From positions 1 through 56,698 of IMG/VR virus record IMGVR_UViG_3300021356_000020: a stretch of DNA of 56,698 nucleotides; one strand, 5' to 3'. The stretch comes from a virus. Every line of letters begins with the position of its first letter. Positions within the stretch are counted from its first letter, which is position 1. Below the pieces are notes generated by a model. That model saw nothing but the letters and a program-made list of their open reading frames with translations, ran no database searches and was not told where the DNA came from. Shown here piece after piece: positions 16,950 to 39,269 of this stretch. The position numbers and the translations under genes are program-made.

Positions 16950-16979
16950 ACATTGAAACCATATTGAAAGGAGAAATTG

Positions 16980-20815: not shown

Positions 20816-20844
20816 TTGACTTTCTTTGTTGTCTCAGCTATAAT
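20816..20844 (+). promoter_or_regulatory. Consensus sigma70 promoter ahead of RNA array A
   Basis: TTGACT at 20816-20821 and TATAAT at 20839-20844 with a 17-base spacer make this the best promoter in the window. Transcription would start near 20851, only a few bases before the first structured RNA unit, so the array forms the very 5' end of the transcript for ssb and the glycan operon. TTGACT begins directly after the dnaE stop codon. Confidence 0.8.
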
Positions 20845-20856
20845 AAGTAAACGATG

Positions 20857-20922
20857 CTTTTGTGGTTTGGTGGAACGTAACGGGCCGTAGTTACCGTAAA
20901 AACTACATACTTTTAAATCGGC
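20857..20922 (+). ncRNA. Structured RNA unit A1 (pseudoknot family)
   Basis: P1 pairs 20861-20868 (TGTGGTTT) with 20900-20907 (AAACTACA). P2 pairs 20875-20881 (ACGTAAC) with 20890-20897 (GTTAcCGT, one bulged C). The P2 loop GCCG at 20884-20887 pairs with CGGC at 20919-20922, outside P1, giving a pseudoknot. Flanking features conserved across the family are TTTT before P1, GTAG after the loop strand and AAAT before the 3' pseudoknot strand. First of three units 73 bases apart. Confidence 0.8.
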
Positions 20923-20929
20923 AACCCTG

Positions 20930-20995
20930 CTTTTACAGCTTGGCAGAACGTAACGAGCCGTAGTTAACGTAAAAGTTGTAAACACTTAAATCGGC
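20930..20995 (+). ncRNA. Structured RNA unit A2 (pseudoknot family)
   Basis: P1 pairs TTACAGCTT at 20933-20941 with AAGTTGTAA at 20973-20981 (one G-U), a different sequence from A1 but equally complementary. P2 pairs 20948-20954 with 20963-20970 (bulged A). The loop GCCG at 20957-20960 pairs with CGGC at 20992-20995. P2 begins exactly 73 bases after that of A1. The linker AACCCTGC ahead of it recurs before unit B2. Confidence 0.8.
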
Positions 20996-21002
20996 AACCA
21001 AG

Positions 21003-21069
21003 GTTTTATGACTCGCCAAAACGTAACGCCCTGTAGTTGCCGTAAGAGTCATAAGTTTTTAAATCAGGG
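21003..21069 (+). ncRNA. Structured RNA unit A3 (pseudoknot family)
   Basis: P1 pairs TTATGACTC at 21006-21014 with GAGTCATAA at 21046-21054, nine perfect pairs unlike A1 or A2. P2 pairs 21021-21027 with 21036-21043 (U-G pair and bulged C). The loop CCCTG at 21029-21033 pairs with CAGGG at 21065-21069, a compensatory change of the GCCG/CGGC pair in A1 and A2. P2 again lies exactly 73 bases after that of A2. A hairpin terminator follows directly, then the ssb ribosome binding site. Confidence 0.8.
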
Positions 21070-21073
21070 GATT

Positions 21074-21093
21074 AGTCGGCCTAACCGACTTTT
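21074..21093 (+). terminator. Terminator-like hairpin after array A
   Basis: AGTCGG at 21074-21079 pairs with CCGACT at 21085-21090 around the loop CCTAA, followed by TTTA. The U run is short, so it is weak or conditional. It lies four bases after the 3' pseudoknot strand of unit A3 and before the ssb ribosome binding site (AAGGAG near 21106). The arrangement resembles an attenuator controlled by RNA folding. The same CCTAA loop is found in the hairpins of arrays B and C. Confidence 0.5.
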
Positions 21094-21116
21094 ACTTGAA
21101 ATTATAAGGAGTATTG

Positions 21117-21437
21117 ATGAATAATTGTACATTTACTGGGTATCTTTTACATGACCCACAGATAGAAAGCGATGGCGATGGGCCATCTTGCTGCACTGTA
21201 AAAATGGTAACTTACGAGTATCGTAAGAACAAACGAGGCGAAAAGAAAAAAGTTCCTACAACTATTACCTTGCAAGCTTGGGCTAGCGGCGCAGAAACAA
21301 TTGCTAAACTTGGCAAAAAAGGAACTAAGATGACCGTATACGCTTCTGCTAGAAATGGCGTTATGAAAACAGACGCCACAGACGACGTTCTATTTAGAAT
21401 TAATGAATTTGACTTCGGTTGCTTAGATAAGGAATAA
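21117..21437 (+). CDS. ssb: Single-stranded DNA-binding protein
   Basis: A 106-residue OB-fold SSB: NNCTFTGYLLHDPQ as the first strand, CTVKMVTYEYRKNKRGEKKK as the loop-strand region, TTITLQAWASGAETIAKLGKKG and a final DVLFRINEFDFG. It lacks the acidic DDDIPF-like tail of bacterial SSB. It would coat single-stranded DNA at the fork. The start is ATG 21117 with TAAGGAG upstream; a TTG three bases earlier is possible. It is the first gene behind promoter and array A, so its expression may be set by the RNA leader. Confidence 0.8.
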   Translation: MNNCTFTGYLLHDPQIESDGDGPSCCTVKMVTYEYRKNKRGEKKKVPTTITLQAWASGAETIAKLGKKGTKMTVYASARNGVMKTDATDDVLFRINEFDFGCLDKE

Positions 21438-23849: not shown

Positions 23850-23856
23850 GAATAAA

Positions 23857-25975: not shown

Positions 25976-26388
25976 AATTACAAATAACTACAAATCAAAA
26001 AGACGAGATTCAAGGTTTTAATAGTTTTTCTCTATCTGACCTACATAGGGTGGACAGCGAAGTAACAGACAATGAGTGTGAAAACATTTTTATTAGTAAT
26101 AATGTTCTTAATTCAATTCCACCTCCTCAGATAGAGCCGTTCTTTAGATTGATTCAAACTAAACTTAGGATCGGAGGTACGGTAACTCTGAGTGCCATTG
26201 AGCCAATGGTAATGTCAAAGATGCTGGTAAACAACTCCTTAGACGAAATGCAGTTTAGCAATATTGTAGCCTCTGCAAACTCTATGCTACCGCTTGGCGC
26301 AGTAAAGAACATCTTGGGGTCAATGAATTTACAAGTTTTAACAACTTCTATCAACGGGATAAGCTATGAAATCACAGCAAGAAGATAA
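25972..26388 (+). CDS. Half-size methyltransferase-like protein
   Basis: 138 residues that look like the second half of a class I methyltransferase: ENIFISNNVLNSIPPPQIEPF corresponds to the post-motif II helix region and LIQTKLRIGGTVTLSA to the 'LkpGG.l.i' strand, ending with LQVLTTSINGISYEITARR. The SAM-binding glycine-rich loop (motif I) is missing, so it is either a truncated relic, a subunit, or a very short variant. It overlaps both neighbours and keeps a good reading frame, which argues against decay. Confidence 0.5.
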   Translation: MKLQITTNQKDEIQGFNSFSLSDLHRVDSEVTDNECENIFISNNVLNSIPPPQIEPFFRLIQTKLRIGGTVTLSAIEPMVMSKMLVNNSLDEMQFSNIVASANSMLPLGAVKNILGSMNLQVLTTSINGISYEITARR

Positions 26389-27112
26389 ACAAAGACAGAA
26401 AATAACGCTATGCTCTTCTTGCGCTTTTTACTCTGACGATTGCAAGTTTGGTAGACTGCAAAGATATAAAAATCTAAATAAAGTTCTCCCAAATTACGAA
26501 GAAGCTCCAGTTATTAACGAGCTATGTAATCTATGTAGAACAGCAGATTGGGCTGAATCTAAAGAAAACCCAATGGAAGAAGCCAGAAAGAGTGTTATGC
26601 CGTCGTTTGGTATAGCCGTTTTAGACATGGATAACGAAGGCTTAGAAAGCATTGTGTCAACATTGATGGATATAGATTATCCAGAAAACTTGATCAGGAT
26701 CATTTTCTATACCAATAACTCTAATATGCAAGAAAAGATTCCTTTGTTGCATAAGCTACAAACTAAATTTAAAAATTCTAAGATTTGTTTCGAGCTACAA
26801 GAGAGAGAAAAAGAAGAAATAGATTCAGAAGTATTCCAATACTTAGTAAATTCTGATTACTTTGTTAAGGTGTATCCATACTCAAATATATACAGTGATA
26901 TGTTCTTAATGATAGATGATATGCTTAACGAAAAACTAAGCGCATATGCCTGCTATGAGTTTGACCACAAAAACAAGAAATCTGGATCAATCATTCAGAA
27001 AAATATTGTCAGAAAGATATATCTTCAGTATCATGATTATGACAAGATGCAAGAAGATCTTTTCACTCAATCTAAACACTCTAAACTTTTTTGTAGAATA
27101 GATGAAAAATAA
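26366..27112 (+). CDS. GT-A-like protein with N-terminal Cys cluster
   Basis: 248 residues with four or five Cys in the first 60 (CSSCAFYSDDCKFGRL and LCNLCRTADW), likely a zinc or metal site. It is followed by a GT-A-like region: PSFGIAVLDMDNEGLESIVS, LMDIDYPENLIRIIFYTNNS and SDYFVKVYPYSNI. The metal-binding DxD of classical GT2 enzymes is not obvious. The fusion of a Cys cluster with a degenerate glycosyltransferase fold is unusual. It overlaps the preceding gene by 23 bases, and an alternative internal start is possible. Confidence 0.5.
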   Translation: MKSQQEDKQRQKITLCSSCAFYSDDCKFGRLQRYKNLNKVLPNYEEAPVINELCNLCRTADWAESKENPMEEARKSVMPSFGIAVLDMDNEGLESIVSTLMDIDYPENLIRIIFYTNNSNMQEKIPLLHKLQTKFKNSKICFELQEREKEEIDSEVFQYLVNSDYFVKVYPYSNIYSDMFLMIDDMLNEKLSAYACYEFDHKNKKSGSIIQKNIVRKIYLQYHDYDKMQEDLFTQSKHSKLFCRIDEK

Positions 27113-27869
27113 AAAATGTATCATAAAACCAAAAACAAATGAAAGAAAAGAGTTTTATACTCCTGAGTTTGTTACAATCATTCTGCTTTCAGAAAGTCAT
27201 GGATATAGAATGAAATCATACGGATCTATACCACTGGTAAAGATTCTAGACAAAACTTTAATACAGAAGCAAATAGAAGTTATTAAATCGTTTTTCCCAA
27301 ATTACGAAATTATTCTATGCTCTGGATTTGACGTAAAAAAAACAGTAGAATATGTAAAAGAAAACTTTCCGTCAGAGAATATTAGGGTCGTAGAAAATCA
27401 AGTTCATTTGAATTCTAATTGTTGCGAAAGTACAAGACTTTGCCTTAACAATACCACTAATCATAGAGTATTAATTTGCTCTGGTGGTATTCTCTTAACA
27501 GCCGACATGCTTTCTCAGATAAATTATAGAGCAGATTGCGTGTTGGTACAAGACGACAACCCGATGAAGAATTTTGAAGTTTCCGCTATGGAAAATGATT
27601 TTAATCTTCAGAATTTGTGTTTAGGTGAAAAGATAAATTTTTGGACAGAATGTTTATATCTGTCAAACGGCTCCTCTGTAAAAAAAATGTATGATATTAT
27701 CTCTAATCCAGATTTTAAAAACAAATTTATATTTGAGGCGATAAATGATCTAAGTAGGACCAATAGAATCAAAGTTGTAAAAAACACTTTGTCTCCGATA
27801 ACAAAGATAGATAACATAAAAACTTTAAAGGATATATCTTCTAATGAAAGTATTAATTCAAGACTATAG
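27102..27869 (+). CDS. Nucleotidyltransferase-like protein (sugar-nucleotide type)
   Basis: 255 residues resembling the nucleotidyltransferase fold of GlmU/RfbA-type enzymes: VTIILLSESHGYRMKSYG corresponds to the start of the fold, SIPLVKILDKTLIQKQIEVI to the 'KPL..v.gkpli' helix, NYEIILCSGF and HRVLICSGGILLTADM to later strands. The glycine-rich GxGxR signature is altered (SESHGYR), so catalysis is doubtful or atypical. It might activate or regulate a sugar nucleotide used in the operon. Overlaps of 11 and 26 bases with its neighbours. Confidence 0.5.
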   Translation: MKNKKCIIKPKTNERKEFYTPEFVTIILLSESHGYRMKSYGSIPLVKILDKTLIQKQIEVIKSFFPNYEIILCSGFDVKKTVEYVKENFPSENIRVVENQVHLNSNCCESTRLCLNNTTNHRVLICSGGILLTADMLSQINYRADCVLVQDDNPMKNFEVSAMENDFNLQNLCLGEKINFWTECLYLSNGSSVKKMYDIISNPDFKNKFIFEAINDLSRTNRIKVVKNTLSPITKIDNIKTLKDISSNESINSRL

Positions 27870-28746
27870 AGACAATAACAGCTCACGTTTTCAATACCTT
27901 CCCGGTATGCTAAGTATGATTGACGGCGTTGAAATATATAAGTGGGAAAGAAAAAATCTTTCAAAAGTATATGATACTTTTGACAGTATCAAGCCAGATT
28001 TAGTGATCATGCACTATCAATCTCTCAATCAGGACATTGTTAAGTATTTGAAGTCTTCAACAAATATTAGAATTGTTTTTGATGTAACAGATATTACTGA
28101 AACAAATATTAAAGAGCTAGAAGAAATTGTTAGCTCTAACAATATTAACTGTCCACTGGTTATCACTGAGCGTGGACCACAAAGCACAGTTTTAAAAACA
28201 TTAGTTGTACCTCCATGCGCAGATATCGTTACCCCGTCACCACTAGCTCCAACCTACGAGATAGAGACATTATTTGTATCCGAGACGGAGGACTATGATA
28301 AATCTTTATTGACAGCTTACGAAAGCTACCACACCTGCCTCGTTCCAACTGAAACTGTCATCCCTTTAGAACAGCCAGACTTTGTTCCAAACAATGGATT
28401 TGATTTCCTGTTAAATGTCAGTCACTTAAACCCGCTGTACAAAAATTACAAACAGGTTGTCATCCACGGCAGTCTAGAATACTGCACTTCGCAAATATTT
28501 TTTGAAGCGCTGATCCGGGCAAATAAAGTAATACTAAAGTATCCAGAATCAGAAAGAGACAACTTTTTAACATTCCTTGGTAAAACTTTTTCTGAGTCAG
28601 ATAAAGATCCAACAGAGGAACAAATCAAAGAGCAGATTAAAGCGAAGCATACATGCGTGTCTAGGTCTTTGGAGCTGTTGGTTGCTTTAGGTATGCAGCA
28701 AGAAGCGCAAATCTTGGTAAATAAAGTGGGAGCGGCGTCTGCATGA
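27844..28746 (+). CDS. GT-B-like glycan protein, unknown
   Basis: 300 residues without a family I can name. The first part, MKVLIQDYRDNNSSRFQYLPG, and DLVIMHYQSLNQDIVKYL resemble the N-terminal domain of GT-B enzymes, and LVVPPCADIVTPSPLAP lies where the second domain would begin, but the donor motif with paired glutamates is absent. The C-terminus is helical (SRSLELLVALGMQQEAQIL). It may be a non-catalytic partner of a transferase, or a diverged enzyme. Operon overlaps on both sides. Confidence 0.45.
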   Translation: MKVLIQDYRDNNSSRFQYLPGMLSMIDGVEIYKWERKNLSKVYDTFDSIKPDLVIMHYQSLNQDIVKYLKSSTNIRIVFDVTDITETNIKELEEIVSSNNINCPLVITERGPQSTVLKTLVVPPCADIVTPSPLAPTYEIETLFVSETEDYDKSLLTAYESYHTCLVPTETVIPLEQPDFVPNNGFDFLLNVSHLNPLYKNYKQVVIHGSLEYCTSQIFFEALIRANKVILKYPESERDNFLTFLGKTFSESDKDPTEEQIKEQIKAKHTCVSRSLELLVALGMQQEAQILVNKVGAASA

Positions 28747-29549
28747 TACAGGTTATAAACACAGAATGTGGAAATCTAAAGCTAGATGTTCCACGTAGAG
28801 TCTCCTTGATTAAGGATTATCCAAGATTAATTAATGACGACTCGTATAAGATTTACTGGGCGTGTGAACCAAAGGCTATGCTTATGGCTTGCGGCGGGCT
28901 TAGTAATCAGAATATCAAAGATGTTGCAGACAAGTTTGATGCGATTCTAACATATGACGAAGAGTTACTATCGCTACCAAACGCGCACAAATTTGTTTAC
29001 GGAACTTGTTGGCTAAGAGACAATATGTCTGGAGCAGACTATGAATATAGAGAAAAATCCTTTCAGATATCCCATCTTGTTGGCGGTAAAAACGCGGCGG
29101 AAGGACATCAAATAAGGCATCATATTTATGACAATCAACTTTCTATAAACAATCCTATTGACTTTTATATCAGCAATAGAATTCCAAGACCTAACACATT
29201 TAACAATAAGACTATAGGACAATTTAAATATGATCTATTTGACTCACAGTTTCACCTAGCCATAGAAAATTCAGTTCAAGCAAATTACTTTACAGAAAAA
29301 ATTATTGACTGCTTCTATGCTAAGACAATTCCTATATACTATGGATGTCCAAACATAGGAGACTACTTTGATACAGATGGTATTATAACTGTAAATTCCG
29401 CCAAAGAAGCTATTGATGTTTGTAACTCACTAGATGCTGAACTTTACAACTCAAAAATGGAGCATGTGGAAAAAAATTATGAATTGTGTCAACAATATGT
29501 TAATATCATACCTAGACTAGAAAAAACAATTATGGAGCTTGTTAAATGA
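28743..29549 (+). CDS. Fucosyltransferase-like protein, GT10
   Basis: The C-terminal half contains the GT10 (alpha-1,3/1,4-fucosyltransferase) signature: FHLAIENSVQANYFTEKII, then DCFYAKTIPIYYGCPNIGDYF, matching the family pattern 'F.L.FENS...DY.TEK...A...G.vPv..G'. The N-terminal half (YKIYWACEPKAML, AILTYDEELL) is also GT10-like. Donor would be GDP-fucose. GDP-L-fucose synthase is encoded 5 kb downstream at 34159-35094, so donor and transferase are in one operon. 268 residues, close to small bacterial members. Confidence 0.7.
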   Translation: MIQVINTECGNLKLDVPRRVSLIKDYPRLINDDSYKIYWACEPKAMLMACGGLSNQNIKDVADKFDAILTYDEELLSLPNAHKFVYGTCWLRDNMSGADYEYREKSFQISHLVGGKNAAEGHQIRHHIYDNQLSINNPIDFYISNRIPRPNTFNNKTIGQFKYDLFDSQFHLAIENSVQANYFTEKIIDCFYAKTIPIYYGCPNIGDYFDTDGIITVNSAKEAIDVCNSLDAELYNSKMEHVEKNYELCQQYVNIIPRLEKTIMELVK

Positions 29550-30190
29550 AATCGACCCTATGTATAACCTGCTGGACAAAAGACGTACATCTAGTAGATA
29601 GCTGTTTAGATTATTTTAAAACACAGACTAGAAAGCCAGATGAGATAATTGTAGTTGGTAATGGACTACGAGAAATTCCAACAAGGCATGATGTAAAAAC
29701 GTTTTGCTGCGAAGAGCCTCAATCAGTAAGCTGGTCTAGAAATAGAGCCGCTGAAATGGCAGAGGGTGATATCATCATCTACTTCGATGTAGACGATATT
29801 CCACATGACCAAAAAATAGAATTGATCATGAAAGCCTTTGAAGAAAATGAAGACATAGACGCTGTTGTTCATACGTTTTCAATGAATCACCTATATATGT
29901 TTTCATATGATGAACTGAAGGTGGCAAAAATAGAACGGCTTGTAAAAGATCACCTTACCGACGAAAGAAATAAATACTCAGTTTCTCATGGTCACATGTC
30001 TATTAAAAAAGATATAGTTAAAGAAATAAAATACGATGAATCGAAACGATGGGGCGAAGATGCAGATTTCTGTAGAAAGGTACTATCACAATACAATATT
30101 TATAGATTGAAACATAAATTGTTTGCCTATAAGCCAAGCTACAGAGATGGAAACCGCTCTTGGTACTATGTCCCAGAAGGGGTAGAATGA
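29546..30190 (+). CDS. GT2 glycosyltransferase
   Basis: A 214-residue GT-A enzyme of family 2: TLCITCWTKDVHLVDSCLDYF, EIIVVGNGLREI, SWSRNRAAEMAEGDIII then YFDVDDIPHD (the DxD metal site is the DVDD), and a later RWGEDADFCRKVL with the ED(x)D catalytic base pattern. All core motifs are in place. It overlaps the preceding stop (ATGA) and the next start. Sugar donor unknown. Length is short for the family, a catalytic domain only. Confidence 0.8.
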   Translation: MKSTLCITCWTKDVHLVDSCLDYFKTQTRKPDEIIVVGNGLREIPTRHDVKTFCCEEPQSVSWSRNRAAEMAEGDIIIYFDVDDIPHDQKIELIMKAFEENEDIDAVVHTFSMNHLYMFSYDELKVAKIERLVKDHLTDERNKYSVSHGHMSIKKDIVKEIKYDESKRWGEDADFCRKVLSQYNIYRLKHKLFAYKPSYRDGNRSWYYVPEGVE

Positions 30191-30903
30191 TGAAATTTTT
30201 AATGCAGTTTCCAACGGCATTTAGACCAAAGAAATTTACGGAATGTCTTTCTATTTACTTAGATACCTATAGTGGTAATCACCATCTACATTTCAATATT
30301 GTTTGCGATGCTGATGATGACTCTATGAACACGCCAGAAATCGTAAGTAAAATAGAACAAATGTTTAATGGAAAATCTAATTGCTCTTATGATCTATATT
30401 TTGACAAAGACACAACCAAGATTAGCGCTATTAACTCTCACATAAATGAGATTGTTGATAATTATGACATTGTGTATTGTGTGTCTGATGATATGATTCC
30501 ACAAGTAAATGACTGGGATGAAATTATTGTAAATGCTATGCAAGAAAATTTTCCAGAACTAGATGGTTGTATTCATATCAACACTGGAGACAGAGATTTT
30601 TGGACAGACTGGACAGAGGTAATTACGCTTTCTATACTTGGACGTGAGCTATATAAAGAATTTGGATATATTTATCATCCAGCATACAAATCTTTTTACT
30701 GTGATGACGAGTTTAGTGCTATCATGCATATGAAGGGAAAGATATTTAGAATAGACGAGAAGATCATCCGCCATGAACACTGTCAGCACAAAAACAATAG
30801 AAACTCTGGCACTGTTGATAAAGGCGTTGAAGTAAACAATAAAAACTGGTTCATTGATCAAGCGATGTTCAATAAAAGAAAAGCTCAGGGGTTTCCTAAA
30901 TGA
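30187..30903 (+). CDS. GT-A-type glycosyltransferase-like protein
   Basis: 238 residues: FLMQFPTAFRPKKFTECLSI, FNIVCDADDDSMNTPEI, ISAINSHINEIVDNYDIVYCVSDD (DIVYCVSDD carries the presumed metal-binding acidic pair), and FYCDDEFSAIMHMKGK plus IIRHEHCQHKNN toward the end. The pattern is GT2-like with an acidic SDD replacing DxD. I place the start at ATG 30187, which overlaps the previous stop; the track from 30160 would add nine unrelated residues. Another ATG follows at 30190. Confidence 0.65.
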   Translation: MMKFLMQFPTAFRPKKFTECLSIYLDTYSGNHHLHFNIVCDADDDSMNTPEIVSKIEQMFNGKSNCSYDLYFDKDTTKISAINSHINEIVDNYDIVYCVSDDMIPQVNDWDEIIVNAMQENFPELDGCIHINTGDRDFWTDWTEVITLSILGRELYKEFGYIYHPAYKSFYCDDEFSAIMHMKGKIFRIDEKIIRHEHCQHKNNRNSGTVDKGVEVNNKNWFIDQAMFNKRKAQGFPK

Positions 30904-31538
30904 ATGTAATATCCTTTAGCTTGTGGGGTAATATTGAAAGATATCACTTGGGAGTTTACGAAAACATAAAACTTGCAAAAGAGATATTTCCAAATTTTAA
31001 CATAGTAATATATTATGACGACAGCGTTTCAACGGATAGAATAAAAAATCTAGAAAATGAAGACGTTACATTGATAAACGCGACCCATATTCCATGCAAC
31101 TCTATGATGTGGAGATTTCTTGCGTCGGATACAGATGGAATATTCTTGTCAAGGGATTTAGATTCTAGATTAGGTTATAGAGAGAAATATGCAGTGGAAG
31201 AATGGTTAAATAGCGACAAAGACTTCCATATCATGAGAGATCATCCAGAACACGCCGTAAAAATTTTAGGAGGCATGTGGGGATCTAGAAATGGCATAAT
31301 GAAAAAGATACATGATATGATTTTTTCTTTTCCTGAAGTGGACCTGAGTGACCTGTATAAAGTGCAAGTTGATCAATCTTTTCTTGCAAAAGTTGTCTAC
31401 CCTATTGTAAAAGATAAATCTATGGTTCATGACGAATTCTTTGAAAGAAAACCTTTCCCACTTAAATCTCCAAAAAGAACCAGAACCTATTTTGTAGGTC
31501 AATCTTACGATGAAAATAATCAACCAATATATAGATAG
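30900..31538 (+). CDS. Glycosyltransferase with DLD motif (GT-A)
   Basis: 212 residues with a clear GT-A organisation: NFNIVIYYDDSVS, MMWRFLASDTDGIFLSRDLD and SRLGYREKYAVEEWL, where RDLDSR supplies a DxD-type metal site, then HIMRDHPEHAVKILGGMWG. This resembles the small capsular-type transferases of phage and marine bacterial clusters. Donor unknown. It starts inside the previous stop (ATGA). Confidence 0.65.
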   Translation: MNVISFSLWGNIERYHLGVYENIKLAKEIFPNFNIVIYYDDSVSTDRIKNLENEDVTLINATHIPCNSMMWRFLASDTDGIFLSRDLDSRLGYREKYAVEEWLNSDKDFHIMRDHPEHAVKILGGMWGSRNGIMKKIHDMIFSFPEVDLSDLYKVQVDQSFLAKVVYPIVKDKSMVHDEFFERKPFPLKSPKRTRTYFVGQSYDENNQPIYR

Positions 31539-31546
31539 GAGTTACT

Positions 31547-32158
31547 ATGTTTAGTCAATATGGAGAAGAAAGAGTTATCAATAATTTCTTTAGCGGTAAA
31601 ACGGGCGGACTGGTCGTAGACGTTGGGGCTATGGATGGAGAAACTTATTCTAACTCAAGAGATTTAATTATAAATTACAACTGGAAAGCAGTTTTGGTTG
31701 AGCCACATCCAGATTTTTTTTCAGCGTTAGAAAAACTCTATTCAAACAATGACGACGTTATCATAAAAAATTTAGCGTGTTATCATGAAGAAAAAGTGCT
31801 TGATTTCTATGTTTATTCAGACGGAAAAGAATCTTGCGTTTCAACCGTTTCGAGTGATTTTAAAGAGAGAGTTATAAAGGCACATGGCGATAAGTTCAAA
31901 GCAGAGTCAGTAAAAGTCCAGTCCGTAAGGCTAGAAAAAATACTATCAGAATGTGAAAAAATAGATTTTCTTTCTATTGACTGTGAAGGTGTAGATATGG
32001 AGGTTCTTAGCTCTAATAATTGGTCTAAATATAGACCGTCTCTGATTTGCATAGAACATAGCATGAGTCACGAAGAATTACACCAATTTATGTCAAAAAT
32101 TAATTACAGTGTATACGATAAAACCGCTGGTAATACATTTTTCAAAGAAAATAATTAA
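31547..32158 (+). CDS. FkbM family methyltransferase
   Basis: 203 residues, a textbook FkbM domain: FSQYGEERVINNFF, LVVDVGAMDGETYSNSRDL (SAM-binding motif I), KAVLVEPHPDFFSALEKLY (motif II) and IDFLSIDCEGVDMEVLSS (the D-C-E-G-V-D loop). FkbM enzymes O-methylate sugars or lipids; within this operon a sugar hydroxyl is most likely. AGGAG lies just before the ATG. The 3' end shares one base with the next gene. Confidence 0.82.
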   Translation: MFSQYGEERVINNFFSGKTGGLVVDVGAMDGETYSNSRDLIINYNWKAVLVEPHPDFFSALEKLYSNNDDVIIKNLACYHEEKVLDFYVYSDGKESCVSTVSSDFKERVIKAHGDKFKAESVKVQSVRLEKILSECEKIDFLSIDCEGVDMEVLSSNNWSKYRPSLICIEHSMSHEELHQFMSKINYSVYDKTAGNTFFKENN

Positions 32159-32997
32159 TGATGAAATTACTTTTTATACAAGAAAACGGAAGACACGACA
32201 AGAATAGAAACTTTAGAGAGTGTTTCTCTTTACAGCGTGCCACTATCCACAACGGTCATGAAGCAGATGTATGGGGCTTAAATCACTCTGGATGGGAAAA
32301 TGAACCAGACTGGGAATCTTATGATTTAATTATAAACTTAGAGAACTACGATTCTACCGGTTGGGTTCCAAATCTATCAAAGGTTCAGACCAAGAAATTT
32401 ATATGGTCGATAGACGCTCATGTTAGAGGTATAGATCCATATTTAAAAACAGCAAACGAAGGAAACTATGATTTAATATTACAATCTACACCTGAGTATG
32501 TAGATCAAAATAGCATATGGTTTCCTAACTGTTATGATGATGATTTAATAAAACCTTTAAACATTGAGAAAAAATACAATGTTGGGTTTTGCGCTAATAT
32601 TGCAAACAGAAGAGACGCAATTATTCATATGATCACAAAGCACCAGATGAAATTCGAGGAGATGGTAATTGGAGACGATATGGTAACTGCTATAAATTCT
32701 TATAAAATACACTGGAACCTAAACATTTCTAACGATATAAATTATAGGAATTTTGAAACGATGGGGTGTAGAACACTTCTATTAACATCTCATAATAAAC
32801 ATTATGGAAAACTAGGATTTATTGATAAAATTAATTATGTTGAATGGTCAGATATTAACGAAATTGATGATATTCTACTAGAATTATTATCCGATGAGAA
32901 CAAGATAAGAAAAATATCCGAAGCTGGATATGAATTAGCTAAGAATAATCATACATATAAACATAGAGTAGAAACAATATTGGAGAATATAATATGA
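32158..32997 (+). CDS. GT-B glycosyltransferase-like protein
   Basis: 279 residues: MMKLLFIQENGRHDKNRNF, YDLIINLENYDSTGWV, KKFIWSIDAHVRGIDPYL, YNVGFCANIANRRDAII, then NYRNFETMGCRTLLLTSHNK near the end, matching the donor-side 'R.fE.macG...i' motif of the glycosyl transferase 1_2 family. The C-terminus has the usual helical end. Starts with two ATG codons at the previous stop. Confidence 0.65.
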   Translation: MMKLLFIQENGRHDKNRNFRECFSLQRATIHNGHEADVWGLNHSGWENEPDWESYDLIINLENYDSTGWVPNLSKVQTKKFIWSIDAHVRGIDPYLKTANEGNYDLILQSTPEYVDQNSIWFPNCYDDDLIKPLNIEKKYNVGFCANIANRRDAIIHMITKHQMKFEEMVIGDDMVTAINSYKIHWNLNISNDINYRNFETMGCRTLLLTSHNKHYGKLGFIDKINYVEWSDINEIDDILLELLSDENKIRKISEAGYELAKNNHTYKHRVETILENII

Positions 32998-33515
32998 ATG
33001 GACAAACAAGATTTGTAATAGATAGCCTCAAAGATGAAAAAATTAAATCTGTGTTGAATATTGGATATAGAATTAGTAGCGATCACACAATTATGAACCA
33101 TGTAAAAACAATGAATAAAACTTGGACTATACTTGAGGTATGGAAAGAGAATTGTGATCATATGAAACAGAAAGGTTTAGACGTTATTGAAGAAGATGTT
33201 AGAAATATAAAGAATTTAAATAGAAGGTTCGACGCAGTAATTTGGCTTCATGGTCCAGAGCATATTACGTGGGACGAATTTAAACAAGTTAGAAGCGACA
33301 TCGAAGAGAAAAGTAATCATTTAACTATATATCAATGTCCAATAGGCGAATACCCACAGGGAGCTTTGTATAACAACCCGTATGAAAACCATGTATCTAC
33401 AATTACAGCTGAGATGTTTACTGATTTGGGATATGATACTATAGAACACGTTTACGGAAAAGACCCGTTCGCCCTAGATGGGGAAAAAACAGTTAGCGCT
33501 TTCATAAGGAAATAA
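32994..33515 (+). CDS. SAM-dependent methyltransferase-like protein
   Basis: 173 residues of class I methyltransferase type: IKSVLNIGYRISSDHTI in place of motif I, TWTILEVWKENCDHMKQKG (motif II region), VIEEDVRNIKNLNRRFDA then VIWLHGPEHITWDEF, a 'fD.vi..H.lEH' type motif. The glycine-rich loop is degenerate (NIGYRI). Its substrate is likely a sugar. Overlaps its neighbour by four bases; the next gene starts just after its stop. Confidence 0.6.
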   Translation: MNGQTRFVIDSLKDEKIKSVLNIGYRISSDHTIMNHVKTMNKTWTILEVWKENCDHMKQKGLDVIEEDVRNIKNLNRRFDAVIWLHGPEHITWDEFKQVRSDIEEKSNHLTIYQCPIGEYPQGALYNNPYENHVSTITAEMFTDLGYDTIEHVYGKDPFALDGEKTVSAFIRK

Positions 33516-33516
33516 A

Positions 33517-34155
33517 ATGAATAATTTAACAAATTTAGGATTAAAATATGGAACAGACAAGGTTGACCAATATCACACGTTCTTAGGTGAAACTTACACC
33601 GATATATATTATCGTTACCTAAATCACCTAAGAGACAAAGAATTTAACTTTCTTGAAATAGGTGTTAAGACGGGCTGCTCTATAAAAATGTGGTCAGAAT
33701 TTTTTCCAAAAGCAAAAGTTGTGGGGGTGGATATTGACCCAAGATGCAAACAATATGAAGGCGGTAATGTTGAAATTCATATCGGATCGCAAGAAGATCC
33801 AGATTTTTTAAACACTTTAATTGAAAAATATGGATCATTTAGAGTAATATTAGATGATGGAAGTCATATTAACTCGATGATAATGAAATCGTTTGAAGTT
33901 TTAAATCAATACGCAACTGAATTTTATATCGTTGAAGATTTAAGAAATAGTTACGAAAATTTAACGCCACATGTTCAGTCTTGGCCGGGGATGAATTTGA
34001 ATAAAGATCTAGATGCCGACAATTCTAAGACTAGACCAAGGTTTAATGATATGATTTTAGATCTAATTAAGCAAATGGATTACAGAACAGGGCAGTGGTC
34101 TGGATTCTGCTTCCATGCACAAATGTTAGTTATGCAAAAAATCTGTAAGGAGTAA
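33517..34155 (+). CDS. MycE/CmcI-type O-methyltransferase
   Basis: 212 residues with the pattern of sugar O-methyltransferases related to mycinamicin MycE: LGLKYGTDKVDQYHTFLGE, FLEIGVKTGCSIKMWSEFF (motif I), KVVGVDIDPRCKQYEGGNV, RVILDDGSHINSMIMKSFEV (the D-D-G-S-H metal site) and EFYIVEDLRNSYE. The DDGSH motif implies a metal-dependent enzyme. A third methylation activity in the operon, alongside FkbM and the short methyltransferase, suggests a heavily methylated glycan. Confidence 0.75.
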   Translation: MNNLTNLGLKYGTDKVDQYHTFLGETYTDIYYRYLNHLRDKEFNFLEIGVKTGCSIKMWSEFFPKAKVVGVDIDPRCKQYEGGNVEIHIGSQEDPDFLNTLIEKYGSFRVILDDGSHINSMIMKSFEVLNQYATEFYIVEDLRNSYENLTPHVQSWPGMNLNKDLDADNSKTRPRFNDMILDLIKQMDYRTGQWSGFCFHAQMLVMQKICKE

Positions 34156-34158
34156 GAC

Positions 34159-35094
34159 ATGAGGGTATTATTAACAGGAGCTACCGGGTTTCTTGGTAAA
34201 AACCTAGTAGAATATCTACCTAAATACTTAGGTGAACAATATAGAGTTTCTGGAATCGGATCTAAGCAATACGACCTAAGAAACCAACACGCATGTAGGA
34301 AAGCGCTAGAATACTTTAACCCTGATGTTATCGTACATGCTGCGGGATCTGTTGGCGGTATTGGTGCTAATCAAGAGAATCCCGGAAAGTTTATGTATGA
34401 TAATCTTATCATGGGTACAAACTTGATTGAAGAAGCCAGAGTAAAGAAAGTGCCAAAGTTTGTTTTGCTGGGTACGGTGTGCGCATATCCAAAACATTGC
34501 CCCGTTCCGTTTAACGAAGAAGAAATATGGGAAGGTTATCCAGAGGAAACCAATGCTCCATACGGCATCGCAAAGAAAACGTTGATGCGATTACTTCAAG
34601 CATACGGCGAACAGTACGGTATGCGAGGCGCAAATCTAATACCAGTTAATATGTATGGTCCTCACGACCACTTTAATCTCACTAGCAGTCATGTTATCCC
34701 TGCGCTCATACTTAAATTCTATAGCGCAATTAAAAATGGAGATCAGGTTGTTCCTATTTGGGGTACTGGCGAAGCGTCAAGAGAGTTTCTGTATGCTCCA
34801 GATTGCGCAGAGGCAATTGCGTTGGCAATCAAACATAACGTACCTCTAGATCCGATCAATATTGGAACCGGTAAGGAGATTAAGATTAAGGATCTTGTAC
34901 AAGAGATAGCAGATCAAATGGAGTATACGGGCGATATAGTTTACGAGACAGATAAACCAGACGGTCAACCTCGCCGCTGTCTTGATACAGGATTGGCAAA
35001 AGCACTCCTTGGTTTTGAGGCAAAAACAGATTTACAAACAGGACTAAAAGAAACCATCGAGTGGTTTTTAAACGATAATAATTGGGAGACTTAA
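34159..35094 (+). CDS. fcl: GDP-L-fucose synthase
   Basis: An NAD(P)-dependent short-chain epimerase/reductase of 311 residues that makes GDP-L-fucose from GDP-4-keto-6-deoxymannose. Motifs: GATGFLGKNL near residues 6-15, VIVHAAGSVGGIGANQENP, LLGTVCAYPKHCPVPF (catalytic Thr/Cys region; the family usually has SSCIYP) and NAPYGIAKKTLMRL with the Y-x3-K pair. GT10-type transfer would use the product (28743-29549). AGGAG precedes the ATG. No GDP-mannose dehydratase is seen in the window, so that step may come from the host. Confidence 0.88.
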   Translation: MRVLLTGATGFLGKNLVEYLPKYLGEQYRVSGIGSKQYDLRNQHACRKALEYFNPDVIVHAAGSVGGIGANQENPGKFMYDNLIMGTNLIEEARVKKVPKFVLLGTVCAYPKHCPVPFNEEEIWEGYPEETNAPYGIAKKTLMRLLQAYGEQYGMRGANLIPVNMYGPHDHFNLTSSHVIPALILKFYSAIKNGDQVVPIWGTGEASREFLYAPDCAEAIALAIKHNVPLDPINIGTGKEIKIKDLVQEIADQMEYTGDIVYETDKPDGQPRRCLDTGLAKALLGFEAKTDLQTGLKETIEWFLNDNNWET

Positions 35095-35095
35095 T

Positions 35096-35524
35096 ATGAA
35101 CGTAGGAGTATTTTTAAATTCACCAGATAGTTCAGAAATGAATGTAGAACTATTTAACAACCTTAATAAACACGTAGAAGATAGTACATTTCAAGATGTA
35201 TCAGTGTTCTATAATAATATTGCATTTAATCCAGTAACACCCAAGTTCGGAATGTTTAATTCAACAGACCTTTGGTACTATACTGGAAAACTATTGGTTA
35301 TCGGTTTTGAAATTCTATCATCAATAGATTCAATTGTAAACAAGTTCGACGCATCTATTCTTTATGACGGTACTAAAAATATCATGAAGATCATTGACGC
35401 TATGAGCCGATATAATGTTATATGTGTTAATAGGGATCACTACGACTATATCAAGCGAGTTACCAACAAAGAACCTATTCTTGTTGAGAGCTTTGATATG
35501 AAAGACTTTGCAGAGGTGCTATAA
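35096..35524 (+). CDS. Hypothetical protein (142 aa)
   Basis: Not recognised. Hydrophobic-core pattern suggests an alpha/beta protein: MNVGVFLNSPDSSEMNVELF, WYYTGKLLVIGFEILSSI, FDASILYDGTKNIMKII and RYNVICVNRDHYDYI. There is no signal peptide and no Cys motif. It lies at the end of the glycan operon, starting two bases after fcl and sharing one base with the endonuclease gene. A receiver-like or nucleotide-binding role cannot be judged from sequence. Confidence 0.55.
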   Translation: MNVGVFLNSPDSSEMNVELFNNLNKHVEDSTFQDVSVFYNNIAFNPVTPKFGMFNSTDLWYYTGKLLVIGFEILSSIDSIVNKFDASILYDGTKNIMKIIDAMSRYNVICVNRDHYDYIKRVTNKEPILVESFDMKDFAEVL

Positions 35525-36297: not shown

Positions 36298-37061
36298 TGA
36301 GTAAAGATAATGATTTGTTTGAAGATGTTGAACTGGCTACTCCTTCTAATACTCAGACCGGAGTTGTAGATGTTATTCAAGACGATAGACCAAAGACTAC
36401 AGATCCAGAGTGGAACGACTACGTTTTAAGTCTCTTTGATGATTCAGAGATGTATGATGGTCGCCCTCTTTGTCACGGTCTTCGTCGTGTCGCTGAACTT
36501 TTGTTTGGTGACATTATTTGTAGCAGACCTACCAAAGTATTTCCACCGCAGGATGATAATGGCATCGGTAGAGCCACGGTTATCTGGGAAATCGTGTTTG
36601 AGAATGGTCAATCGTTTAGTGACGTTGCTGATTGCTGGGAAGGCAATACAGACGACACATTTTGCGTCTTTAACACTGCTACAGCTGCAACGAGAGCAGA
36701 GGGTCGCGCTCTTAGAAAGGCGCTTAGATTGCGTGTTGTGGCGGCAGAAGAGATCACTAAGAAGAATACCGCAGAGATTGTCAAGAGTATTAGTCAAACT
36801 AATGCGATACAAAATACACAAGGAGAATATCAATCAACAGGTAGAATGACAGAGAACCAAGAACGGTTCATTGATGGTAAAAGTAAGCAGTTGGATATTC
36901 ATCCAGCAAAGCTATTTAAAGATGTATTCAATCTTTCTGTGTCAAAGAAGATTGATAAGAAACAAGCTAGTGATGCCATTGAAAGATTAAATGAGTATCA
37001 GCAAGACAAGAGTTCAATTCCAAGTTCAATTACTGGTTATCAACAAGATTGGAGAAGTTAA
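36297..37061 (+). CDS. Hypothetical DNA-annealing-like protein
   Basis: 254 residues. The central part has GIGRATVIWEIVFENG and FCVFNTATAATRAEGRALRK then ALRLRVV, reminiscent of the 'tRAegRALr.al' helix of Rad52/RecT-type annealing or replication proteins, and the C-terminal part, NQERFIDGKSKQLDIHPAKL then DKKQASDAIERLNEYQQ, is a helical domain frequently attached to such proteins. The N-terminus is acidic and disordered. This is a pattern-based guess, not a firm family assignment. It overlaps the next start (TAATG). Confidence 0.4.
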   Translation: MSKDNDLFEDVELATPSNTQTGVVDVIQDDRPKTTDPEWNDYVLSLFDDSEMYDGRPLCHGLRRVAELLFGDIICSRPTKVFPPQDDNGIGRATVIWEIVFENGQSFSDVADCWEGNTDDTFCVFNTATAATRAEGRALRKALRLRVVAAEEITKKNTAEIVKSISQTNAIQNTQGEYQSTGRMTENQERFIDGKSKQLDIHPAKLFKDVFNLSVSKKIDKKQASDAIERLNEYQQDKSSIPSSITGYQQDWRS

Positions 37062-37396
37062 TGAAGGTGAATTATCAAACCAGAAATGGTAGATTGAGTG
37101 TAGAGCTTAGTGGTGACGATCAAAAGGCAATCTTTGGCGAGATCGCTAAGTTCCAAGAGGTTTTTGAGGAAAGCGTTTGTGCCAAATGCGGATCTGATAA
37201 CATTCGGTTTGTTGTTAGAACTGTAGATGACAACGAATATTACGAACTACGATGTGCTGACTGTGGCGCACGTCTTTCATTCGGCGTAAACAAGAAGGGT
37301 GGAACACTCTTTCCGAAACGCAAAGACGCAGATGGAGGCTGGCTGCCAGATCGCGGCTGGGTCAAGTGGAACCCAAAAACTGAGCAGAATGAGTAA
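37061..37396 (+). CDS. Small zinc-ribbon protein
   Basis: 111 residues with two CxxC knuckles separated by a beta-hairpin: SVCAKCGSDNIRFVVR and ELRCADCGARLSFG, a classic zinc ribbon, followed by a Gly/Trp-rich C-terminus (DGGWLPDRGWVKWN). GGAGAAG precedes the ATG at 37061. A DNA- or RNA-binding or transcription role is likely but unspecific. It is the last gene before array B: the first RNA unit begins within a few bases of its stop. Confidence 0.6.
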   Translation: MKVNYQTRNGRLSVELSGDDQKAIFGEIAKFQEVFEESVCAKCGSDNIRFVVRTVDDNEYYELRCADCGARLSFGVNKKGGTLFPKRKDADGGWLPDRGWVKWNPKTEQNE

Positions 37397-37401
37397 CGAA
37401 G

Positions 37402-37467
37402 CTTTTGTGGTTTGGCATAACGTAACGAGCCGTAGTTAACGTAAAAACTACAGAAAAATAAATCGGC
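37402..37467 (+). ncRNA. Structured RNA unit B1 (pseudoknot family)
   Basis: P1 pairs TGTGGTTT at 37406-37413 with AAACTACA at 37445-37452. P2 pairs 37420-37426 (ACGTAAC) with 37435-37442 (GTTAaCGT). The loop GCCG at 37429-37432 pairs with CGGC at 37464-37467. It is nearly identical to A1, and the linker AACCCTGC to the next unit is also the same. It begins right after the zinc-ribbon gene with no separate promoter seen. Confidence 0.8.
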
Positions 37468-37474
37468 AACCCTG

Positions 37475-37541
37475 CTTTTACAGCTTGGCTAAATGTATCG
37501 CGCTGTAGATAACATAAAAGCTGTAGAATCATAAATCAGCG
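37475..37541 (+). ncRNA. Structured RNA unit B2 (pseudoknot family)
   Basis: The most informative copy for covariation. P2 is ATGTATC at 37493-37499 with GATAaCAT at 37508-37515, changed on both sides compared with ACGTAAC/GTTAnCGT. The loop CGCTG at 37501-37505 pairs with CAGCG at 37537-37541, again changed on both sides. P1 is TACAGCTT at 37479-37486 with AAGCTGTA at 37518-37525. P2 lies exactly 73 bases after that of B1. A hairpin with a CCTAA loop follows. Confidence 0.82.
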
Positions 37542-37545
37542 GACT

Positions 37546-37565
37546 GGCCGCCCTAAGCGGCCTTA
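37546..37565 (+). terminator. Terminator-like hairpin between B2 and B3
   Basis: GGCCGC at 37546-37551 pairs with GCGGCC at 37557-37562 around CCTAA, followed by only TTAAC. Strong stem, weak U run, so termination may be partial or conditional on the pseudoknot strand five bases upstream. An almost identical hairpin follows unit C1. It increases the spacing between B2 and B3 from 73 to 99 bases. Confidence 0.5.
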
Positions 37566-37572
37566 ACTAAGG

Positions 37573-37640
37573 TTTAATGGCTTGCCTATAAACGCAACGA
37601 TTTGTAGTTGACGTAAAAGTTATTAGAGAATAAATCAAAT
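37573..37640 (+). ncRNA. Structured RNA unit B3, leader of the TnpB-like gene
   Basis: P1 pairs AATGGCTT at 37576-37583 with AAGTTATT at 37617-37624 (two G-U pairs). P2 is ACGCAAC at 37592-37598 with GTTGaCGT at 37607-37614, a third variant with U-A replaced by C-G. The loop ATTTG at 37600-37604 pairs with CAAAT at 37636-37640, unlike all other copies. The 3' pseudoknot strand ends four bases before AAGGAG (37645-37650) and 15 bases before the ATG of the TnpB-like gene, close enough to affect translation. Confidence 0.8.
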
Positions 37641-37655
37641 TTTTAAGGAGAAAAT

Positions 37656-39077
37656 ATGTCTGATTATATTAGCGTAGATGAAACTAGGAAGCGTGGCTCT
37701 AAGATTATGATTCCTAAAAAAGTTTTATCCGAGGACTATGTTAAAGAGTATAGAAAAGATATGGAAAAAGCCGTTCCGGTATTATTTTCATATATAAAAA
37801 GTCTAATTGAAAAATGGGGCGTTGAAAACATCGACATAAAACCTCAACAAATTACAGTTAAGGATACTGACGTAAACGATAATACTTTTATCGGATTTGA
37901 TGGAAATACTTATGAATATAGCTATTCCGTTGAATCTAGAACCGGAGAGACAAATAGTAATGGAAATCCAAAATACTACTGGACTGGCGGAAAAGACAAA
38001 GATTATTCATCTTTAGAAGATACTGATGTCATCCGATTTAAGAAAATAAAAGATACGTATTTTATCAATATGCTAGAATCTGTATTGCCAAATACAAATA
38101 AGGCTTGGAGAACAGAGATTTTTGCGTATTATATGAAAATGTTAACATCTAGAAAACGTGGAAATAAGTTTAGTGGTACGGCCCTTAACGAGAAAATTCT
38201 TGAAATGAACAGGCCGCCACAGCTAAGAAAAAACACGTTGCAATTTAAAGGTAATATTAGAATTCATACGGAAAAAGGCACTATTAGTTTTCTAACGCGA
38301 AATAAAGATAAGGATGGAAACTCAGTTAGATTGACTGTTCCATATTCTAAAAACCTTTGCGTAAAAACCTACGATGGAAAAAGCGGCAGCGCTGTTGGTG
38401 GAAACCTTGTAATCACAGAAGGAAAACATAAAAAGAATAATGTATTCATTGTGTTTGAAGACAAGGTTCATGAGAAGTTAACTCCAGATGATCCTACAAA
38501 ATGGGTTGGATTCGATATTAACGTGAAGTCAGAAGACTGGCTTACATTTTGGGATTGTTTCACACAAACCTCTTTTAAGTGGTCTAGAGGCGAATATGCC
38601 CAAAGATTGATTGATAAATTGAAATCTGTAAATAAAGAAATTGATAATACCAATCGTGGAAGTATTACCTCTAGCACAAGAAGAAGTAAAAGACTAGAAG
38701 TGGTAAAATATATTCCCAGAAAGATGGATAGATATATTGCTAAGATATTTCCACCTTTGATTAAGACTCTACGATCTCAAGGAAAGGGTTTGGCTATTGA
38801 TAGCGCTCGATTTGGAGCGAGAACTGGAAATCATTTTCAGGAAAATATTAACCGTGTAGTTCCTGAGCTATGTGAAAAATATGGCGTTCCGTACCACATA
38901 GTTAACTCAGTGAATACTTCTAAAATGTGTTCAAGTTGTGGTCATGTCACAACTAAGACAAAAAATAAGAAGCATCATGAAGAAGGAATCTACGAGTGTT
39001 CAAAATGCGGAAACGTAATAGACGAGCCGGTAAATGCGGCTAAGAATATCGCACAAACCGCTTGTAGAGAAAACTAG
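37656..39077 (+). CDS. TnpB/Cas12-like RuvC protein
   Basis: A 473-residue protein with a TnpB-type C-terminal nuclease half. RuvC-I is WVGFDINVKSEDW with D287. RuvC-II corresponds to GLAIDSARFG, where Asp382 occupies the usual Glu. A zinc ribbon has C425-x2-C428 (MCSSCGH) and C448-x2-C451 (YECSKCG). RuvC-III is IDEPVNAAKNIA with D456. The N-terminal 280 residues do not match a family I know and are much longer than the wedge/REC part of small TnpB. No TnpA, inverted repeats or transposon ends are seen. Structured RNA units lie immediately before and after the gene, with AAGGAG behind unit B3. Possible roles: RNA-guided nuclease, RNA-guided repressor if RuvC is inactive, or a homing element. 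Confidence 0.82.
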   Translation: MSDYISVDETRKRGSKIMIPKKVLSEDYVKEYRKDMEKAVPVLFSYIKSLIEKWGVENIDIKPQQITVKDTDVNDNTFIGFDGNTYEYSYSVESRTGETNSNGNPKYYWTGGKDKDYSSLEDTDVIRFKKIKDTYFINMLESVLPNTNKAWRTEIFAYYMKMLTSRKRGNKFSGTALNEKILEMNRPPQLRKNTLQFKGNIRIHTEKGTISFLTRNKDKDGNSVRLTVPYSKNLCVKTYDGKSGSAVGGNLVITEGKHKKNNVFIVFEDKVHEKLTPDDPTKWVGFDINVKSEDWLTFWDCFTQTSFKWSRGEYAQRLIDKLKSVNKEIDNTNRGSITSSTRRSKRLEVVKYIPRKMDRYIAKIFPPLIKTLRSQGKGLAIDSARFGARTGNHFQENINRVVPELCEKYGVPYHIVNSVNTSKMCSSCGHVTTKTKNKKHHEEGIYECSKCGNVIDEPVNAAKNIAQTACREN

Positions 39078-39078
39078 G

Positions 39079-39145
39079 CTTGTGCAGCTTGGCGGAACGT
39101 ATCGCGCTGTAGATAACGTAAAAGCTGTAAGTTCCTAAATCAGCG
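39079..39145 (+). ncRNA. Structured RNA unit C1 (pseudoknot family)
   Basis: Begins directly after the stop codon of the TnpB-like gene. P1 pairs TGCAGCTT at 39083-39090 with AAGCTGTA at 39122-39129. P2 is ACGTATC at 39097-39103 with GATAaCGT at 39112-39119. The loop CGCTG at 39105-39109 pairs with CAGCG at 39141-39145. Together with the following hairpin it is a close copy of the B2 unit and hairpin on the other side of the gene, forming an imperfect direct repeat around it. Confidence 0.8.
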
Positions 39146-39149
39146 GACT

Positions 39150-39169
39150 GGCCGCCCTAAGCGGCCTTT
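39150..39169 (+). terminator. Terminator-like hairpin after C1
   Basis: GGCCGC at 39150-39155 pairs with GCGGCC at 39161-39166 around CCTAA, followed by TTTAAC. It matches the hairpin after B2 base for base in stem and loop. Confidence 0.5.
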
Positions 39170-39176
39170 AACCATC

Positions 39177-39242
39177 CTTTTACAGCTTGGGTAAACGTAA
39201 CAAGCCGTAGTTATCGTAAAAGCTGTAACACCTTAAATCGGC
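39177..39242 (+). ncRNA. Structured RNA unit C2 (pseudoknot family)
   Basis: P1 pairs TTACAGCTT at 39180-39188 with AAGCTGTAA at 39220-39228, nine perfect pairs. P2 pairs 39195-39201 (ACGTAAC) with 39210-39217 (GTTAtCGT, here with a bulged U). The loop GCCG at 39204-39207 pairs with CGGC at 39239-39242. The bulged base is A, C or U in different copies, always at the same position. P2 begins 98 bases after that of C1, and the final terminator abuts the pseudoknot. Confidence 0.82.
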
Positions 39243-39269
39243 TAGGGGGCATTACGCCCCCTATTTTTT
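39243..39269 (+). terminator. Strong rho-independent terminator
   Basis: TAGGGGGC at 39243-39250 pairs with GCCCCCTA at 39256-39263 around ATTAC, followed by TTTTTT. It ends the plus-strand transcription unit at the junction with the convergent minus-strand genes. On the minus strand the stem is not followed by a U run, so it works in the plus direction only. The stem begins directly after the 3' pseudoknot strand of C2. Confidence 0.85.

Follow-up and report, generated by a model that had tools for sequence, protein, structure and literature searches.

Predicted nuclease-dead TnpB-like proteins of tailed phages co-occur with tandem double-pseudoknot RNA units without visible guides

Results

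A TnpB-like gene lies between clusters of structured RNA units

TnpB is the ancestor of Cas12. Here, we analyzed the 56.7 kb tailed phage record IMGVR_UViG_3300021356_000020 of IMG/VR (56,698 nucleotides, hereafter called the window), in which positions 37397-39269 form a compact inserted cassette consisting of a TnpB/Cas12-like gene and the RNA units that flank it. An earlier note, made from the sequence alone, had described a 473-residue protein bracketed by such units and a third cluster of the same RNA 16 kb upstream, and both features were confirmed. Altogether, the window contains eight units of 74-76 nt in three clusters, with B1-B3 preceding the gene, C1-C2 following it and A1-A3 located between polC and ssb (Table 1). 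Unit B3 places the 3' strand of its pseudoknot directly 5' of AAGGAG, the Shine-Dalgarno sequence of the TnpB-like gene. The order of the clusters appears related between A and B, as A1 resembles B1.

Empty sites were found for both the cassette and cluster A. In the related record G002, the distance from the stop codon of the homologue of open reading frame (ORF) 37049-37396 to the next homologous stretch is 59 bp, compared with 2,060 bp in the window. The polC-ssb gap measures ~50-110 bp and is devoid of units in seven close or moderate relatives inspected, the closest of which retain the TTGACT-17-TATAAT promoter of this junction. Since A1 begins 6 nt past the -10 hexamer of this promoter in the window, the units of cluster A (20850-21069) should be the first thing transcribed. 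A fragment from a related phage, locus L002, shows the converse situation, with two units between a phoH-like and an fmdB-like gene, at a place free of units in the window, and also holds a near-identical copy of the hairpin that follows B2 and C1. Among the neighboring ORFs examined, neither a TnpA nor a resolvase was found; no search for element ends was made.

The RuvC triad is lost throughout a family of phage homologues

The window protein contains a Cas12f1-like TNB zinc-ribbon domain (PF07282, E 8e-13) and gives a profile match to Cas12f at 1.2e-13. Among solved structures, its closest chains are those of Cas12m, Cas12f and TnpB. The catalytic D-E-D triad of TnpB is replaced by D, D and P.

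A search for close relatives with the window protein as sole query returned nothing from viral_contigs and one weak match in INPHARED. In genome_contigs, just distant C-terminal TnpB matches were obtained, and hence no link to a bacterial host was found. Homologues were instead reached by identifying phage relatives via RecA and PolC and searching their whole records for PF07282, which yielded the proteins of G015 and G018; a three-protein profile then led to 15 loci. Full-length homologues are encoded in 15 other viral records and share 23-30% identity with the window protein.

In all 12 members aligned, the triad is lost: the aspartate of RuvC-I is invariant, RuvC-II carries D for E, and RuvC-III carries, in place of D, P in the window protein and Q or H in the homologues. 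Most other phage TnpBs retain the RuvC E and D, and the TnpBs of RM378, KE23 and Methanosarcina keep both. Because the triad is degenerate in every aligned member, cutting is unlikely. Judged by sequence, the window protein thus belongs to a phage family of putatively nuclease-dead TnpB/Cas12f-like proteins that had not been characterized before.

To judge the fold, we used a model of the homologue of locus L187, which reached a mean predicted local distance difference test (pLDDT) score of 84.6. Comparison of this model with the TnpB-omegaRNA structure 8h1j gave a Z-score of 17.8 over 334 residues (residues 1-381), and comparison with AsCas12f (7wju) a Z-score of 18.3 (residues 1-394). Foldseek matched it to Cas12f at an E-value of 8.5e-14. 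According to the model, the TnpB fold is intact in this homologue over nearly its full length.

The units fold into a double pseudoknot supported by covariation

Four helices are common to the units. The outer stem P1 comprises 10 bp, and P2 is made of 3-bp and 4-bp segments separated by a single-base bulge in its 3' strand. A first pseudoknot arises where the loop of P2 base-pairs with the 3' tail, immediately past a conserved UAAAU, and the 3-bp helix P0 crosses P1 to give a second one of the H-type. The RNA had been noted earlier as tandem and pseudoknotted; in fact, it is doubly so.

In the alignment of the eight window units, 97% of the pairs at 25 paired positions are standard, and 16/25 positions have changed on both sides; covariation is seen in all helices. 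None of 500 column shuffles matched the observed pairing and double changes, and sliding the partners by 1-3 columns let the pairing fall to 26-43%. RNAalifold recovers P1 and P2 unaided. Units of the homologue-bearing phages, which form two groups, differ in sequence and share the architecture: group I units (n=23) are 97% paired with 88 double-change cells, including P0, and group II units (n=22) are 96% paired with 73 such cells. In alignment A7, a shift introduced by MAFFT leaves two P1 pairs uncounted. Covariation thus shows the unit to be a double-pseudoknot RNA of ~70-75 nt. At gathering scores, Rfam gave no match to the whole window; at E up to 5, there was one chance-level match in the region.

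A CRISPR array was considered and rejected: in place of the repeat-spacer order of Type V CRISPR-Cas, the units are contiguous and have no spacers, and their variable P1 arms pair with each other.

Every homologue is adjoined by units

Reading of the gene flanks together with a sequence-independent structure scanner showed that each homologue has units of this architecture beside it. They occur on both sides of the gene in every group, and in most records one of them overlaps the gene 3' end. For group I (L187-L193 together with their records), the gene is preceded by two or three units in tandem and overlapped at its 3' end by another, with one further unit downstream. In group II (G015, G018 and G047-G050), units lie among tRNAs and on both gene sides, with one overlapping the gene 3' end in G015 and G018. 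The position typical of an omegaRNA, taken by C1 on the stop codon in the window, is likewise occupied by units overlapping the 3' end of the ORF in L187, L191, L193, L197 and L201. As controls, the TnpBs of other phages were inspected (Thermus TMA, YS40_Isch, Rhodothermus RM378, Salinibacter and Salmonella KE23), and no unit family was evident there; two isolated scanner matches in YS40_Isch are at the level of shuffled sequence.

Some further features of these phages were recorded in passing. The TnpBs of Thermus phage TMA (L262, 2638-4107) and YS40_Isch (L266, 2317-3783) have NAQ instead of NAD in RuvC-III and may be nuclease-impaired; that of TMA is of the IS607 type and adjoins a resolvase. 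Two diverged carrier phages share a conserved noncoding stretch of ~300 nt (L108 2000-2390; L109 2000-2340) located 3' of the TnpB-like gene and of a tRNA-Leu, with no Rfam match at gathering scores. ARAGORN called permuted transfer-messenger RNAs (tmRNAs) at G015 53193-53622, G047 ~60383-60704 and G050 ~27374-27697; tags called in the carrier phages are AKPSFALAA and AEETLALAA. Since RNA units fall within the span called in G015, this call may be partly spurious. In G049, a cytochrome-c-like gene (L215, 16704-17459) with a match to PSCyt1 (Planctomycete cytochrome C) lies just 3' of a unit, a possible hint at the host.

Gene and units co-occur across diverged phages

To assess co-occurrence, the covariance models R1, R2 and R3 were run on whole records. 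Units were present in 16/16 gene-bearing records (the window and 15 carriers), whereas 33/35 related records without the gene lacked them. The two exceptions, G001 (4.1 kb) and G019 (15.4 kb), are both fragments. Among records of at least 30 kb, units were found in 10/10 with the gene compared with 0/16 without it. The corresponding Fisher p-values, uncorrected for relatedness and duplicate records, are 2e-11 for all records and 2e-7 for the longer ones. A survey of homologues for the RNA had been proposed in the earlier note, and its outcome speaks for the association. As the units of the carriers themselves trained R1-R3, the evidence for the carriers is that of the scanner and of covariation.

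Searches for the RNA outside the carriers gave a consistent picture. With a stricter version of the structure scanner, 1.1 Mb of sequence from relatives' loci without the gene yielded no unit; this version demands an A in the upper stem and misses the G015 units, and a relaxed one was used for the homologue flanks. Applied to 98 relatives' loci without the gene, R2 and R3 detected the G019 unit only. When, starting from the RNA, 2.9 million viral contigs were scanned with a pattern for group II units, recognizable units came from carriers only. For the window RNA, the exact DNA pattern had no match, a looser one retrieved L002 and two chance-type loci only, and of 78 stretches matching the loosest one, L002 alone is real (best other E 0.03). 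A conserved partnership of protein and RNA is therefore well supported by these sequence comparisons.

Units lie at gene junctions and leave no visible space for a guide

Away from the gene neighborhood, units occupy intergenic gaps and lie on the coding strand. Their starts typically fall in the interval from 25 nt before to 13 nt after the stop codon upstream of them; one unit in G018 begins 1 nt past a tRNA. Junctions of replication genes recur: units lie between polC and ssb in the window and in G048 (SSB identified by PF00436, 1.6e-26), after ssb in G044 and before polC in G019. In three records (the window, G015 and G019), two or three units in tandem are directly preceded by a -10 box.

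On its 3' side, the pseudoknot strand gives way either to the following unit or to a U-tract, to the hairpin of a terminator or to a Shine-Dalgarno sequence. In group II, the T fraction 3' of the pseudoknot amounts to 0.52 versus 0.29 genome-wide. Across the units inspected, no guide-like segment was found 3' of the pseudoknot, and consecutive units abut, which upholds the earlier observation that the arrays leave no room for spacer-like guides. Within a phage group, the sequences past the pseudoknot are shared and not variable.

Further features of the window

The coordinates of all features are given in Table 1. Three other regions of the window were noted. At 16977-20815, two separate ORFs encode DNA polymerase III alpha, one the PHP/NTPase part and the other the finger/OB part, and enclose a 224-residue ORF that looks exonuclease-like by eye; all three ORFs are conserved in relatives. 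Two adjacent homologous proteins encoded at 9595-12098 are 31% identical, resemble DUF1501/Tat-signal proteins by eye and are conserved in roughly one third of the loci from relatives. Behind the ssb gene (21114-21437), positions 21439-35524 are occupied by an extended series of ORFs of glycosyltransferase-like and related sugar-metabolism type, a large part of which has no match in the relatives' loci.

Table 1 Features of the cassette and of cluster A in the window.
Feature	Position	Strand	Basis or remark
Sigma-70-type promoter TTGACT-17-TATAAT, polC-ssb gap	20816..20844	+	11/12 consensus matches
RNA unit A1	20850..20923	+	Alignment, covariation
RNA unit A2	20923..20996	+	Alignment, covariation
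RNA unit A3	20996..21069	+	Alignment, covariation
Terminator-like hairpin, CCUAA loop, short U-run, between cluster A and ssb	21074..21090	+	
RNA unit B1, begins on stop codon of ORF 37049-37396	37395..37468	+	Alignment, covariation
RNA unit B2	37468..37541	+	Alignment, covariation
Hairpin GGCCGC-CCUAA-GCGGCC after B2	37546..37562	+	Sequence
RNA unit B3, ends 15 nt 5' of the TnpB-like ATG	37565..37640	+	Alignment, covariation
Gene of predicted nuclease-dead TnpB/Cas12f-like protein	37656..39077	+	473 residues, ATG start, stop codon 39075-39077
RuvC-I D287	38514-38516	+	Residue of TnpB-like protein
RuvC-II D382 replacing E	38799-38801	+	Residue of TnpB-like protein
RuvC-III P458 replacing D	39027-39029	+	Residue of TnpB-like protein
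Zinc-ribbon Cys 425/428/448/451			Residues of TnpB-like protein; all four invariant among aligned homologues
RNA unit C1, overlaps TnpB-like stop codon	39072..39145	+	Alignment, covariation
Hairpin GGCCGC-CCUAA-GCGGCC and UUU after C1	39150..39166	+	Sequence; identical to hairpin after B2
RNA unit C2	39170..39243	+	Alignment, covariation
Strong intrinsic terminator, then TTTTTT, cassette end	39243..39263	+	

Discussion

In the RNAs of TnpB and Cas12, a pseudoknot located directly 5' of the guide is gripped by the WED and RuvC domains (PMC10097598). The loop-to-tail pseudoknot of the units described here is analogous to it and forms the last element of the RNA. Proteins of this kind that have ceased to cut are known: TldR is a domesticated, nuclease-dead TnpB for which guides of 6 nt suffice (PMC13418256), and Cas12m2 has a non-canonical, non-cleaving RuvC site (HDD; PMC10442227). 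The characterized TnpB relatives that we found in the literature, including these two, all keep a guide. A nuclease-dead, guide-less derivative with RNA units placed in the transcripts of the phage is the most economical reading.

We propose that the cassette encodes a TnpB that was domesticated by phages and no longer cuts, together with its RNA partner, omegaRNA-like units devoid of a guide that probably control phage transcripts, and we consider the chances of this proposal to be about even. The protein would bind the units in the way TnpB binds its omegaRNA. The resulting ribonucleoproteins (RNPs) would assemble on transcripts of the phage itself, at their starts as well as at gene junctions and the ends of tRNAs, and could there control termination, processing, stability or translation of the neighboring genes, including the TnpB-like gene itself; this range of roles is suggested by the placement of the units. 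Of the unusual RNA-guided system envisaged in the earlier note, the conserved and unusual RNA partnership stands, whereas a guided nuclease is not supported, given the loss of the RuvC site in all members and the lack of a guide after the scaffold. On the basis of the sequences, this suggests that some marine tailed phages carry what was a guide-dependent cutter and may have become a guide-free, RNA-binding regulator. In a broader and more tentative formulation, to which we give somewhat less than even chances, a lineage of RNA-guided nucleases could have lost both cutting and guiding in phages, with the dead TnpB and the dispersed guide-less units now forming a regulatory system that marks phage transcripts.

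Several observations weigh against this proposal. Some units, namely cluster A and scattered ones in G048 and G049, are remote from the gene, so that the RNA could have a function of its own. G001 and G019, though incomplete, bear the RNA without the gene. The placement of the units, which serve as 5' leaders, sit at 3' ends or lie between tRNAs, is so diverse that no single regulatory mechanism fits neatly. Regarding the protein, the aspartates of RuvC-I and RuvC-II are invariant in the family, so that some residual metal-dependent activity is conceivable. Finally, the AlphaFold model of the window protein is poor (pLDDT 53) and confident in the RuvC part only, which is why the fold is argued from the L187 homologue.

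Four other explanations were weighed. The protein could be a TldR-like repressor, which would use short guides 3' of the tail pseudoknot to silence host or phage promoters by binding DNA. Nuclease-dead TnpBs that bind RNA and DNA exist, and some of them are phage-encoded (PMC13418256); moreover, almost the entire homologue retains the fold, and a unit lies on or directly beside the gene 3' end, as an omegaRNA does. However, in tandem arrays the pseudoknot is followed without any gap by another unit, in group II by a U-tract and elsewhere by a terminator or Shine-Dalgarno sequence, and these following sequences are common to a phage group and not variable. We regard a TldR-like repressor as unlikely.

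Hardly different in probability, and likewise unlikely, is a scenario in which the units are cis-acting elements in their own right, such as pseudoknot terminators, antiterminators or switches in leaders, and share the cassette with the protein but have no direct partnership with it. The order promoter-unit-unit in three records, the U-tracts 3' of the pseudoknot and the position of units right behind stop codons and ahead of Shine-Dalgarno sequences would all fit such elements, and phage RNAs that act on RNA polymerase alone exist, for instance HK022 putRNA (PMC9378689). This scenario does not readily account for the co-occurrence with one protein family over strongly diverged phages or for the conserved flanking of the TnpB-like gene in particular, and the pseudoknot is of the type recognized by TnpB/Cas12 proteins (PMC10097598).

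The units might also be decoy, antitoxin or anti-defence RNAs, titrating or inhibiting, as tandem guide-less units, either this protein, in the manner of type III toxin-antitoxin systems, or a TnpB/Cas12 of the host, in the manner of RNA anti-CRISPRs. Tandem pseudoknotted units with a hairpin 5' of the gene resemble ToxIN-type loci (PMC8860590), and RNA anti-CRISPRs that mimic repeats, among them type V-A ones, are known from phages (PMC10651486). Yet the protein has a TnpB fold and is not a ToxN-type RNase, and the units are scattered over gene junctions instead of forming one array. We consider this explanation improbable. Least probable is that the units act as DNA, namely as the single-stranded hairpins that end an IS605-like element and non-autonomous elements derived from it, with covariation arising from DNA hairpins: the clean empty sites of the cassette and cluster A and the related cluster order would suit mobility, but the neighboring genes examined include no TnpA or resolvase, up to three tandem copies occupy a site and always on the transcribed strand, and the promoter at the exact start, the terminators at the end and the 3'-tail pseudoknots speak against it.

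Should the proposed guide-free partnership of a dead TnpB with dispersed RNA units hold true, it would represent a categorically new use of the TnpB/Cas12 fold, i.e., guide-free, RNA-directed control of gene expression. With the fold and the omegaRNA-type pseudoknot kept and guide and catalysis dropped, it would show what further uses the TnpB fold allows. A new class of structured RNA with ~60 examples would be gained as well, along with a small, guide-free pair of RNA and protein for the synthetic control of transcripts. The new part is the guide-less mode, domesticated nuclease-dead TnpBs being already a known kind. A full-text literature search did not find this combination described, which is not proof of novelty since subscription papers and most preprints were outside its coverage.

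Comparison with known systems sets the locus apart from each of them while pointing to its closest relatives. HK022 putRNA is likewise a short structured phage RNA behind a promoter, but has no dedicated protein, whereas here a protein co-occurs and units also lie at gene junctions. The type III toxin-antitoxin systems ToxIN and CptIN have tandem pseudoknotted RNA repeats and a terminator 5' of a protein gene, a layout that clusters A and B resemble; yet units of the phage also lie downstream and elsewhere, and the protein family, the unit structure and the genome-wide dispersal differ. Cas12m and Cas12f provide the closest sequence and fold matches of the phage protein, but the phage locus has neither a CRISPR array nor spacers. 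TldR is comparable as a domesticated, nuclease-dead TnpB derivative (which the phage protein, from its sequence, appears to be as well) with a role outside transposons and with some members in phages. Unlike the phage units, which show no guide and occupy many places in phage transcripts, TldR silences promoters by means of a guide RNA, and the motif changes of the phage family are D, D and P/Q/H. Finally, the TnpB-omegaRNA systems of IS200/IS605 and IS607 elements, such as ISDra2 and ISFba1, share with the phage locus the protein fold, the zinc ribbon, an RNA at the gene 3' end and a pseudoknot between a hairpin loop and the RNA 3' tail. In contrast to them, the phage family has lost the catalytic triad and shows no guide and, among the neighboring ORFs examined, no TnpA, and its RNA takes the form of ~70-nt units that are arranged in tandem or scattered over the genome and lie 5' of the gene as well.

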